This document shows positions 5,274 through 9,214 of a DNA stretch of 32,480 nt, in pieces. The DNA lies in contig CANIXX010000006.1 of NCBI GenBank assembly GCA_947471115.1, positions 1-32,480 of the forward strand, in the 5' to 3' direction. The position numbers and the translations under genes were made by a program. Origin of the DNA: Opitutaceae bacterium. GTDB lineage: Bacteria; Verrucomicrobiota; Verrucomicrobiia; Opitutales; Opitutaceae. The notes beneath the pieces are model-generated. The model made no database searches and was not told the DNA's origin. It was given only the letters and a program-made list of their open reading frames with translations. Each line of letters opens with the position of its first letter. Position 1 is the first letter of the stretch.

Positions 5274-6860
5274 TCAAGCTCGGCCAAAGCGACGGCGGAG
5301 CATCGCCGCCAAGTCCTCGCGACCCTCGATACGGAACCCCCAAACCAGTGCAGCGTACACCGCCAAGCCCATGCCAATGAGCAGTGCCAAACCGGCCGCA
5401 TCCGCCCAGCGCCCCGCCGCGACCCAACGCTGCCAGCCCCACCAGCCGCCCGCCACCACCGCGCCCATGAGCAAGCTGGCCACAAGCACTTTGGCGGCAT
5501 CACCTGCGAGGTGGCTGAAGGCCAAGCCTGGGAGCTTACGCGCCAGTTTGACCTGCAGAAACCACGCCTGCACCAGCACCGCGACGTTACTGGCGATCGC
5601 CAAACCCATGGTGGAAAACGGCCCCATGAGCAAAAAGCTCAGAGCCAAGTTAACCACAAAGCTCAGGGCAGCGGCACGCACCGGGGTGGCCGTATCCTTT
5701 TGCGCGTAAAACGCCCGCAGCACTAAATTCACGAAAGAAAAAACCGGTAACCCTAGGGCGAAAACCACCAGCACCGGCACCATCAATGCGGTGGCATTGG
5801 CATCGAACGCCCCGTGCTGAAACAGTAGCCGAATGATTGGCTCAGCCAGCACCACCATACCAACGGCCGCCGGCATATTGATCACCAAAATCAGCCGCAT
5901 TCCCTTGCGGTAGGCGGTGGCCAAATTGGCGTGGTCGCCCTGCGCCGCGTATTTCGCGATCAACGGGAAAACCACCGTGGACACCGCCACGGCAAATACC
6001 CCGATGGGCAACTCCATCAGGCGAGTGGCCAGGTTCAAAACCGAGGCCGCCGCATCGTTGAGCGACAGACCGACCAGGCGTGATACAGCCATGTTTACCA
6101 GGTAAATCGCCGAGCCGAACAGCGTCGGTACCATCAACCGCACGATACTTTTAAACGGATCGCTCGCGCCGAGGTCGAACCGCGGACGCCAGCCCTCGCG
6201 CATCAGCGCGATGGCCGGCACCGCCATTTGAAGAAAGCCGCCGAGCAAGACACCGGCGCACAACCAGTGCATCGCACCCGATTTGTCCTGCGCCCAGCCC
6301 AAATAGGCAGCCCCGCCGAGCAGTACGATCATCGACAAGTTCAGCCAAATCGATGACAGCGCCGGCTCCAGAAACCGGTTCAAGGTCTGCAACGTTGCGC
6401 TGAACGCCGCCGCCAAACACACAAAAATCAGGTAGGGAAACAGCACGACGGCCAAGTCCGCCCCTTGCATCCAGCGGTGCGTGGTCTCCGCCGACACCCC
6501 CCACCCGACCGCACACTCGGCCAAGCGGTCGGCCTGACTCAGTCCCAACATCGCCAAAACGACCACACTCGTGGTGACCACCAGCAGCCAGCTTGTTACC
6601 TGACTGACCAAAACAAACGCCCCCTCGCGCTGTTTTTTCTCCATTTCCTCATGCAGGGTGGGGACCAAGGCGGCAGTCAACGCGCCCTCGCCAAGCAGCC
6701 GGCGAAACAAATTGGGCAAAGTAAAAGCGGACACGAAAGCGGAGTTGAGTGCGCCGACGCCAAACACGGTGGTCGTGAGCATATCGCGTCCTAACCCCAG
6801 AAAGCGCGAAACGAGGGTTGCCGCTGCAACGATACTGATGTGTTTAAGGTTTTTGGACAC
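5274..6860 (-). CDS. murJ: Lipid II flippase MurJ (MviN family)
   Basis: This 528-residue polytopic membrane protein belongs to the MOP-superfamily flippases. It moves lipid II across the inner membrane for peptidoglycan synthesis. The N-terminus is diagnostic: SRFLGLGRDMLTTTVFG, then AFVSAFTLPNLFRRLLGEGAL, which contains the family's conserved arginine region. About 14 hydrophobic segments run along the protein, and AFYAQKDTATPVRAA near residue 390 is another MurJ-conserved block. The length is usual for the family. The start is GTG at 6858-6860, giving MSKNLKHISIV. The gene diverges from pta across about 100 bases, so the two probably have back-to-back promoters. The 3' intergenic region contains a run of seven C then seven T. 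Confidence 0.95.
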   Translation of the reverse strand: MSKNLKHISIVAAATLVSRFLGLGRDMLTTTVFGVGALNSAFVSAFTLPNLFRRLLGEGALTAALVPTLHEEMEKKQREGAFVLVSQVTSWLLVVTTSVVVLAMLGLSQADRLAECAVGWGVSAETTHRWMQGADLAVVLFPYLIFVCLAAAFSATLQTLNRFLEPALSSIWLNLSMIVLLGGAAYLGWAQDKSGAMHWLCAGVLLGGFLQMAVPAIALMREGWRPRFDLGASDPFKSIVRLMVPTLFGSAIYLVNMAVSRLVGLSLNDAAASVLNLATRLMELPIGVFAVAVSTVVFPLIAKYAAQGDHANLATAYRKGMRLILVINMPAAVGMVVLAEPIIRLLFQHGAFDANATALMVPVLVVFALGLPVFSFVNLVLRAFYAQKDTATPVRAAALSFVVNLALSFLLMGPFSTMGLAIASNVAVLVQAWFLQVKLARKLPGLAFSHLAGDAAKVLVASLLMGAVVAGGWWGWQRWVAAGRWADAAGLALLIGMGLAVYAALVWGFRIEGREDLAAMLRRRFGRA

Positions 6861-6959: not shown

Positions 6960-7991
6960 ATGCCCATCATCCCCAAGTTAATTGAACGTCTGCAGCGCCA
7001 CCCGAAGCGTATCGTGTTCCCAGAAGGCAACGATCCGCGCATCCTGCAGGCAGCCCGCCAGTGGGTCACCCGGCGCATGGGCGCGCCGATTCTGCTCGGC
7101 GACCGCGCGGCGATTAAAGCCACCGCAGCCAAGCTCGATATTAACCTGCAGGGCATGCGCCTGATTGAGCCCGAGCGCAGTGAGGAATTTGAGGGGCTCG
7201 CCAGCCACTTGGAACAAATCCGCCGCTTGAAAGGCGTGCGCAGCACCGAGGCACGCGAGGCGTTAAAAAACACCAGTTACTACGCCACCATGATGCTGGT
7301 CACCGGCCAGGCCGATGCGCTCATTTCCGGAGCCACCATGTCAGCTGCCAGCGGACTGCGCCCGATTTTCCAGATCGTCCCACGCTTTGAACACGTGCAA
7401 ACCGCCTCCTCGCTCATCGTGCTCGATTTCGACGAGAAAAAGGTCGGCAGCGACGGTTCGCTCTTCCTGGCCGACTGCGGCGTCATCCCTGATCCTACCG
7501 CCGAGCAGCTCTGCGACATTGCCATCTCCACGGCGATGATTGCCCGCCACCTGACCGGCGAAGTTCCGCGAGTTGCCATGCTCAGTTACGCCTCCAAGAG
7601 CGCGTCCAACCACCCCTCGCTCATCAAGGTCCGCCAAGCCACCGAACTGGCCCGCGCCAAGGCCCGCGCCGCTTTCCTTGAAATGGAAATCGACGGTGAA
7701 CTTCAGGTCGACGCCGCTCTTGATGCCGCCGTGGCTGAAACCAAAGGCGTATCCAGCTCTGTGGCCGGTCATGCTAACGTGCTGGTGTTCCCCGACCTCA
7801 ACTCGGGCAACATCGCCTTCAAACTCATGCAGCACCTCGGTGGCGCCAACGCCTACGGCCAGATCCTCACCGGCCTCACCAAGCCCGCCGCCGAGATCAG
7901 CCGCGGTGCCAGCGCCCACGATGTCTTCGGTGCTGCGGCCATCGTAGGCTGTCAGGCTATCGACCGGCGCTTACTCTTCGGCGCGGCCTGA
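6960..7991 (+). CDS. pta: Phosphate acetyltransferase (short, catalytic-domain type)
   Basis: This enzyme interconverts acetyl-CoA plus phosphate with acetyl-phosphate plus CoA. The 343 residues correspond to the PTA/PTB catalytic domain alone, as in short Pta enzymes. Conserved blocks are RIVFPEGNDPRILQAA near residue 18, ADALISGATMSA near 118, and the C-terminal SRGASAHDVFGAAAIVGCQA. The domains that precede the catalytic part in the long E. coli-type Pta are absent here but are encoded by the next gene, 50 bases downstream. The start is ATG at 6960, with no Shine-Dalgarno sequence. A TTGACG at 6919-6924 could be a -35 element, which would leave a very short leader. No acetate kinase gene is in the window, so whether this enzyme drives acetate excretion or assimilation cannot be decided. 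Confidence 0.94.
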   Translation: MPIIPKLIERLQRHPKRIVFPEGNDPRILQAARQWVTRRMGAPILLGDRAAIKATAAKLDINLQGMRLIEPERSEEFEGLASHLEQIRRLKGVRSTEAREALKNTSYYATMMLVTGQADALISGATMSAASGLRPIFQIVPRFEHVQTASSLIVLDFDEKKVGSDGSLFLADCGVIPDPTAEQLCDIAISTAMIARHLTGEVPRVAMLSYASKSASNHPSLIKVRQATELARAKARAAFLEMEIDGELQVDAALDAAVAETKGVSSSVAGHANVLVFPDLNSGNIAFKLMQHLGGANAYGQILTGLTKPAAEISRGASAHDVFGAAAIVGCQAIDRRLLFGAA

Positions 7992-8041
7992 CGCTCGCCC
8001 TGCCGCAACTAGAGCTCAGCCCAACATAATCACCCGCAGCC

Positions 8042-9214
8042 ATGAATCCTCCTGCAACCGCCAGCAACAACCCGTTTCTTCAGCCCGCGCAGTCATTATT
8101 AACGGCGCCGACCAACAAGGAAATCAAACGGGTATTTGTGGCGGCGACGCGCATGAACGACGGCAAGACGACCACCTGCCTCGGTCTCTACGGCGCGCTG
8201 CAGACGATTTTTCCGCGCGTTGGCTTTATCAAACCCGTTGGCCAGCGCTTCGTCAGCGTGCAGGGTGCCCAGGTGGACGAGGACTCCTTTCTCTTCGACA
8301 CAGTCTACAACGTGCGCGTGCCCATCCAAAGCATGAGCCCGGTGACCATCGACGCCTCCTTCACGCGGCGTTACCTCAAAAACCCGAACGAGCTCCTGCC
8401 CGAGTTAAAGAACCAAATATGCCGCGCGTTTGACCGTGTTTCATGGGAAAAGGATTTCACCTTGATCGAGGGTACCGGCCATGCCGGCGTCGGCTCGGTC
8501 TTCGATCTGTCGAACGCCAGCGTCGCCAAGCTGCTCAAATCCCCCGTCATCCTAGTGTGCCCAGGTGGAATCGGTCGCCCGATCGACGAAATCGCGCTCA
8601 ACAAAGCTCTTTTCGACAAGGCTGGTGTCGAGGTGATCGGTGCGATTCTCAACAAGATCGAACCCGATAAAATCGACTTCGTACGGGAATACGCCGGCAT
8701 CGGGCTCAAGCGCCTCGGCGTGCCCCTGCTCGGTCTCCTGCCCGTCGAAAAAATACTCACCGCCCCCAACCTCACGCAGATCGCCGAGGACATTGACGGC
8801 CAGTGGATCAATGGTCGCAAAGGCTGCGCTAAACAACGCGTCCACCGCGTCATCATCGGTGCCATGACGGCTAAGGGCATCGTCGATTACCTCACTCCGG
8901 GCACGCTCATCATCACGCCCGGTGATCGAGACGACATCATCCTCGCCGCCATTTCCAGTGCCCGCCTCGCCGGTGGCACCACCATCGCGGGCCTCATTCT
9001 TACTAACAATATCCAGCCGCATCCCAAACTAGTCGAACTGCTGGCCCAAACCGACATCCCCGTCATCGCCGCCAAGGGCGAAAGCTATACCGTCACCTCG
9101 ACGATCAACCGGATGACGGTGAAAACCCAACCGCAGGACACCGATAAGATCCCGGTCATCAAACAACTAATCATGAACAATATCGATCTACCCAGCTTGA
9201 TCGCCAAACTTTAA
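8042..9214 (+). CDS. P-loop (BioD-like) + DRTGG domain protein, detached Pta N-terminal half
   Basis: This 390-residue protein has two domains. Residues ~29-240 form a dethiobiotin-synthetase-like P-loop NTPase with a Walker A-type loop AATRMNDGKTTT near 34-45, then GFIKPVGQ and TLIEGTGHAGVGSVFDLSNA. Residues ~265-375 form a DRTGG domain (RVIIGAMTAKGIVDYL, then ITPGDRDDIILAA). In long Pta enzymes such as that of E. coli, these two domains sit in the same order ahead of the catalytic domain and affect allostery and oligomerisation. Here they are a separate polypeptide encoded just after the catalytic gene. I infer that it partners Pta or senses a nucleotide or metabolite. No independent catalytic role can be assigned. 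The start is ATG at 8042, preceded by GCAGCC. Confidence 0.88.
   Translation: MNPPATASNNPFLQPAQSLLTAPTNKEIKRVFVAATRMNDGKTTTCLGLYGALQTIFPRVGFIKPVGQRFVSVQGAQVDEDSFLFDTVYNVRVPIQSMSPVTIDASFTRRYLKNPNELLPELKNQICRAFDRVSWEKDFTLIEGTGHAGVGSVFDLSNASVAKLLKSPVILVCPGGIGRPIDEIALNKALFDKAGVEVIGAILNKIEPDKIDFVREYAGIGLKRLGVPLLGLLPVEKILTAPNLTQIAEDIDGQWINGRKGCAKQRVHRVIIGAMTAKGIVDYLTPGTLIITPGDRDDIILAAISSARLAGGTTIAGLILTNNIQPHPKLVELLAQTDIPVIAAKGESYTVTSTINRMTVKTQPQDTDKIPVIKQLIMNNIDLPSLIAKL

Follow-up and report, generated by a model that had tools for sequence, protein, structure and literature searches.

The class names I and IIa that are used here for phosphotransacetylases (Pta) are those of PMC12724200, the excerpted text of which also describes the N-terminal part of E. 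coli Pta as needed for maximal activity and as involved in oligomerisation. A protein with an AAA and a DRTGG domain can also be encoded by a gene of its own: in Desulfovibrio vulgaris such a standalone gene, DVU3031, lies beside pta and ack (excerpts of PMC4481167 and PMC10102598), so that standalone AAA+DRTGG genes were known already. DVU3031 matters for growth on L-lactate according to the excerpt of PMC10102598, and is presented in that of PMC4481167 as not involved in lactate oxidation and as usually absent in Desulfovibrio. In CBS-pyrophosphatase, where AMP and ADP bind to CBS domains, the main contact between subunits is formed jointly by CBS1, CBS2 and DRTGG (excerpt of PMC10742508). 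The N-terminal half of the long Pta enzymes is hard to dissect, being fused and having lost the P-loop Lys in most of the rows examined. The locus described here provides a module of this kind as a separate protein beside a short Pta, with the residues of its NTPase site intact, and in about half of the genomes that carry the pair no acetate kinase could be found; both regulation of Pta and the role of Pta without acetate kinase are, therefore, directly testable in trans.

The window, i.e. the whole stretch of 32,480 nucleotides that was analysed, belongs to an Opitutaceae bacterium and contains the features collected in table 1. The earlier note on this DNA had placed the catalytic domain and the P-loop and DRTGG part of a Pta in separate, adjacent genes, and both the open reading frames (ORFs) and their Pfam domains bear this out. 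The two ORFs are in different frames, so that P-loop, DRTGG and catalytic domain are not found in one chain, and the window's genome has no PF01515 match other than this pta gene. Neither a terminator-like site in the gap between the two genes nor an Rfam match anywhere in the window was found.

Table 1. Features of the gene pair and its surroundings in the window.
Feature	Position	Strand	Basis and remarks
Short (class I type) phosphotransacetylase gene (pta), 343 aa	6960..7991	+	PF01515, 327 bits; ATG start
Intergenic gap, 50 bases	7992..8041	+	Between pta and partner ORFs
Standalone BioD-like NTPase + DRTGG protein gene ('partner'), 390 aa	8042..9214	+	PF13500 and PF07085 above cut-off; ATG start; 27-row orthologue alignment
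AAA_26 (BioD/CobB-like) domain of partner, residues 29-242	8126..8767	+	PF13500, 106 bits; profile matches to dethiobiotin synthetase structures
P-loop of partner, residues 36-44, including Lys42	8147..8173	+	Alignments of standalone rows
DRTGG domain of partner, residues 246-358	8777..9115	+	PF07085, 97 bits; profile matches 2ioj (AF_1212) and pyrophosphatase chains 3l2b/3l31
MurJ-like gene upstream of pta, in divergent orientation	5274..6860	-	PF03023; conserved context, outside the two-gene unit

The PF01515 (PTA_PTB) match spans residues 5-328 of the window Pta and nearly the whole profile (positions 4-317 of 319; cut-off 24 bits), and, this full-length domain being the only one, the protein is of the class I type. 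Its best matches among solved structures are phosphotransacetylases; in the alignment with 1qzt (218 bits), Ser314, Arg315 and Asp321 correspond to Ser309, Arg310 and Asp316 of that structure, positions that we take to be those of catalytic or active-site residues. Because the protein scores below the curated NCBIfam equivalog cut-offs for Pta (TIGR00651, 284.6 vs 311.2 bits; NF007233, 303 vs 310), we can only infer its acetyl specificity; the butyryl models reach 97 bits or less.

The partner consists of PF13500 followed by PF07085, without PTA_PTB, and is, thus, a member of the standalone AAA_26-DRTGG family, which presumably is COG0857-like. With 28.5 bits against the 83.3 required for bioD (TIGR00347), and 29.6 against 261.4 for cobB, it stays below the cut-offs of both models. 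Lys42, Lys64, Asp79 and Glu143, which align with residues of the dethiobiotin synthetase chains 3mle and 2qmo and presumably stand for the BioD-site residues (the Lys of the P-loop, a second Lys, an Asp and a Glu), are invariant across the 27 partner orthologues. In a wider set of 58 standalone rows, Lys42, Lys64, Asp81, Glu143 and Gly151 are the same throughout and Asp79 in 57, the P-loop Lys being present in 39/39 rows from pairs, 14/14 other standalone rows and 5/5 ligase-associated rows. The fused rows (i.e. those from long Pta) have Leu at the P-loop position in 13 of 16 cases and Lys in three, and Asp81 is conserved in two of the 16, vs all 58 standalone rows; other residues of the site are often kept in them (Lys64 in 13/16, Asp79 in 11/16 and Glu143 in 15/16). 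A Gly/His stretch that follows Glu143 is kept in the paired genes and, with few exceptions, in the other standalone rows; the ligase-associated rows show it in weaker form, and it is absent from all 16 fused rows. The separate partner gene, thus, looks like one for a working NTPase, and most of the fused domains examined do not look like one.

Within the window's order, the two genes are strictly associated. A partner orthologue (51% identity or more) was found in 41 of 87 sampled genomes of the order, and in 40 of these the short pta immediately precedes it on the same strand, G012 being the sole exception; when nine further order genomes from the phylum sample are added (seven of the window's family and two of family f11, the genes being adjacent in all nine), pta lies directly upstream of the partner in 49 of 50 hand-checked genomes. 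The same arrangement is seen in 76 of the best 80 named loci, which by title are from the Opitutia group or unclassified Verrucomicrobia, plus two from Akkermansia muciniphila and one named only 'bacterium'; as to the other four loci, a strong PF01515 match lies elsewhere in three of the genomes, and only a weak match was found for L140, where the partner is at a contig edge. Since pta and partner are neighbours in 76/80 of these best named loci and in 49/50 hand-checked genomes, their pairing is not due to chance and they form a real two-gene unit in this order. Start and stop of the two genes overlap by four bases, with ATG as the candidate start, at L011, L018, L021, L023, L024 and L025, and the pair is non-adjacent in G012, G440 (where the genes are on different contigs), L135 and L137.

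Co-presence was followed in a sample of 273 genomes of the order, where PF01515 is matched in all 130 genomes carrying the partner, in a few cases by a fragment (e.g. in G456 and G409); six weak partner matches (G085, G379, G391, G407, G448 and G478) are left out of the 130. A PF01515 match without a partner orthologue is found in 20 of the 150 genomes of the order with PF01515, of which 16 belong to family f16, and neither gene in 123 of the 273. In the window's own family, 15 genomes have both genes, and the 20 listed without PF01515 are the same 20 as those without the partner. As to the surroundings, a MurJ-like match, divergent and upstream of pta, is found near the pair in 55 of the best 80 named loci, a neighbourhood that is, thus, conserved in many relatives. 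No downstream gene family is common to most of these 80 loci (largest groups 16, 16 and 14) in a survey based on a longest-ORF heuristic, which itself picked up the partner at 69 loci and pta at 59. At one locus (G065:C5:76872-77859), the pta match beside the partner comes in two pieces, in different frames and with a stop, as a result of either a frameshift or a sequence error.

Outside the order, a standalone AAA_26(-DRTGG) homologue was found in 18 genomes. In eight of them it has the two domains or matches over its full length at 29-45% identity, in ten it is more distant, and in none of the 18 is it beside a PF01515 match. Four of these genomes (G133, G207, G267 and G283), with homologues that are 33-41% identical, have no PF01515 match, and a fifth (G306) has a weak match only; in the light of the former four, the partner family is not solely a Pta subunit. 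The co-occurrence in Verrucomicrobiota that the earlier note had proposed to survey is, thus, strict inside the order and does not extend, as adjacency, to the 18 genomes outside it; likewise, the P-loop/DRTGG gene without pta, which the note had named as a case that would speak against its prediction, is not seen among the 130 partner genomes of the order and does occur outside it, in the four genomes just named.

The neighbours of these homologues are varied. In G133 and G207 (L217 and L218) the homologue adjoins a biotin/lipoate-ligase-like gene, which deserves mention given the dethiobiotin-synthetase-like NTPase part, and in G267 and G306 the scanned neighbour is a phosphodiesterase. In other Verrucomicrobiota (L212-L216 and L221), AAA_26 proteins align with most of the partner profile, and Pfam DRTGG is absent in the five of these six that were scanned. 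On three haloarchaeal plasmids, i.e. in the three neighbourhoods inspected out of 10 haloarchaeal matches, the homologue directly follows a gene annotated as acetate-CoA ligase and overlaps it by 4 bases. In the window's order itself, G024 and G085 have a second, diverged standalone gene, which is preceded by an ADP-forming-type ligase (PF13607, PF13549); in G085 (L222; C223, 1901-6221) the ligase, spread over two ORFs and maybe broken or misread, the NTPase/DRTGG gene and a gene of the histone-deacetylase family stand in a row, which suggests a link to protein acetylation.

The metabolic setting was considered through acetate kinase (PF00871). In the 41 paired genomes of the 87-genome sample, a full match is found in 24 and none in 16, 15 of which are 90% complete or more; the match in the window's genome is partial. 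There, a 168-aa ORF on contig 12 (L224:2722-3228; 48.9 bits) corresponds to roughly the initial third of acetate kinase and lies between a DnaJ-like and a P-type ATPase gene; no match was found in G050, of the same genus. Of the 130 paired genomes in the 273-genome sample, 68, the window's being counted among them, show no acetate kinase, a number that includes incomplete genomes and clusters by family (29/30 in f19, 0/10 in f20). Absence of acetate kinase (AckA) in 6/18 genomes with Pta and no partner, a count that leaves out G448 (pta at a contig end) and G478 (best match to a long Pta), vs 68/130 paired genomes (Fisher p 0.21) does not favour a replacement of AckA by the partner. Two other candidates were set aside: phosphoketolase as the source of acetyl-phosphate has matches in 6/87 genomes, and acetate-CoA ligase in place of AckA has strong PF13607 matches in long frames in 7/87 (weaker PF13607 matches, to frames some 300 aa long, being taken as putative succinyl-CoA ligase); neither was found in any of the 16 paired genomes that show no acetate kinase.

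How the pair relates to long Pta was addressed by its gene order and by phylogeny. The earlier note had the two genes in the opposite order to the fusion, which is correct: the NTPase/DRTGG part comes first in 20/20 fused ORF rows (17 different genes, three of them in two loci each), and no fusion with the catalytic domain first was found among them. That the pair results from a long Pta split into two genes is not supported. In the Pta tree (66 rows), one clade (100/98) is made of 31 Ptas from pairs, three without a partner (two of f16 and that of G085) and three that are not adjacent to it, and the 16 long Ptas lie away from this clade, among short Ptas of other Verrucomicrobiota. Forcing the 37 clade Ptas and the 16 long Ptas together costs 53 log units and is rejected (p-AU 0.00019, in a test run after the tree had been inspected); thus, no common ancestry of window-type and long Pta catalytic domains to the exclusion of the sampled short Ptas was found. 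The partner tree (74 rows) has one clade (96/83) with the 16 fused domains and another (100/99) with 39 paired genes, the nearest rows to the latter being standalone genes that do not adjoin pta; here, forcing paired and fused domains together costs 14 log units and survives (p-AU 0.135). Long branches occur, and the sampling is thin outside Verrucomicrobiota, where it comprises E. coli, three haloarchaea and four long Ptas from plasmids. The fission of a long Pta gene, followed by rearrangement, would account for the presence of the same three domain types, and the partner tree can be reconciled with it; it is, however, rejected for the catalytic gene and disfavoured for the partner. Overall it is hardly credible, considering also that the P-loop Lys is kept in 58/58 standalone vs 3/16 fused rows and that a long Pta occurs alongside the pair in G003, G022, G062 and G071. 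The pair was probably never one gene, and 'split' is a misleading name.

The conserved unit and the co-presence of its genes within the order fit a heteromer or a trans-acting regulator, both putative. Tentatively, and with slightly less than even confidence, we regard the partner as a nucleotide-dependent protein that most likely acts in trans on Pta. It would bind, and perhaps hydrolyse, ATP, would dimerise through its DRTGG domain and would set in trans the activity or the direction of Pta according to nucleotide state; elsewhere a related protein seems to serve an acetate-CoA ligase, and in long Pta the module is fused in cis, with its P-loop Lys lost in most rows examined. This reading draws on the co-presence in 130/130 genomes, the adjacency in 49/50 genomes and 76/80 best named loci, the four-base overlaps, the occurrence of the same modules in one natural chain in long Pta, the related genes that follow or overlap those of acetate-CoA ligases (haloarchaeal plasmids, G024, G085) and the conservation of the P-loop Lys (58/58 vs 3/16) and Asp81 (58/58 vs 2/16), as well as, from the excerpted sources, on the role of the N-terminal part in E. 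coli (PMC12724200) and of DVU3031 in growth on lactate (PMC10102598). Against it count the absence of adjacency outside the order (0/18) and the four genomes there without PF01515, the 20/150 genomes with Pta and no partner, the non-adjacent pairs (G012, G440, L135 and L137) and the description of DVU3031 as not involved in lactate oxidation (excerpt of PMC4481167). The co-variation of rates, a weak sign of interaction, is counted on the same side: a distance correlation over 50 taxa gave 0.56 for pta with the partner when MurJ is controlled for, 0.47 for pta with MurJ given the partner and 0.36 for the partner with MurJ given pta, with overlapping subsample ranges.

The partner might instead be an enzyme in its own right, namely a kinase or ligase of the BioD/CobB type, dependent on ATP and with a substrate or product tied to acetyl-phosphate or CoA, in which case the operon would be metabolic and not regulatory. 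We consider this possible, if rather unlikely. The identity of Lys42, Lys64, Asp81, Glu143 and Gly151 in all standalone rows (Asp79 in 57/58), the profile match to dethiobiotin synthetase structures, the homologues kept in genomes without PF01515, two of them beside a biotin/lipoate-ligase-like gene, and the 68/130 paired genomes without an acetate kinase match argue in favour of such an enzyme, whereas the scores below the bioD and cobB cut-offs, the DRTGG half, which is not known to have a catalytic role, and the maintenance of a fused homologue even though its P-loop Lys is mostly lost argue against it. In a more specific form, with the partner as an active, ATP-dependent enzyme of the BioD/CobB type for which an acyl phosphate would be the product or the substrate, e.g. 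a non-homologous acetate kinase that works with Pta where AckA is missing (68/130 paired genomes), the idea is highly improbable. It is also unlikely, to a lesser degree, that the two proteins are merely co-expressed from an operon and do not interact directly: Pta and homologues of the partner are each found alone or non-adjacent, and the rates of pta and partner do not co-vary clearly more than either does with the neighbouring MurJ gene, but the strict co-presence within the order, the start/stop overlaps and the natural fusion of the same modules are at odds with mere co-expression.

As far as the open-licence PMC literature goes, which was surveyed largely by title, no paper on such a pta/partner pair in Verrucomicrobiota was found, nor any earlier account of how strictly the partner goes with a short Pta in this order, of an ancestry other than fission or of the frequent absence of acetate kinase.

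With respect to known systems, the window Pta resembles the class I short phosphotransacetylases (1qzt; 6iow) in its single catalytic domain and conserved Ser, Arg and Asp, and differs from them in being followed by an NTPase/DRTGG gene and in scoring below the TIGR00651 cut-off. The class IIa long Pta, e.g. that of E. coli, has the same three domain types as the window pair, but in one chain, with the NTPase part first and in a different Pta clade; its P-loop Lys is replaced by Leu in 13/16 fused rows, whereas the window partner keeps it. The regulatory region of CBS-pyrophosphatase (CBS-DRTGG-CBS) shares the DRTGG domain with the partner and differs from it in that the nucleotides (AMP/ADP) are found on CBS domains (excerpt of PMC10742508). 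DVU3031 of D. vulgaris, likened to the partner by description only, is also a standalone AAA+DRTGG protein, with its gene beside pta and ack, but there Pta itself is of class II, with AAA and DRTGG domains of its own, and acetate kinase is present (excerpts of PMC4481167 and PMC10102598). Finally, the haloarchaeal 'phosphotransacetylase family protein' is, like the partner, standalone and encoded directly after the gene of an acetate/CoA enzyme, which, unlike in the window, is an acetate-CoA ligase, and the protein is about 23-27% identical to the window partner.
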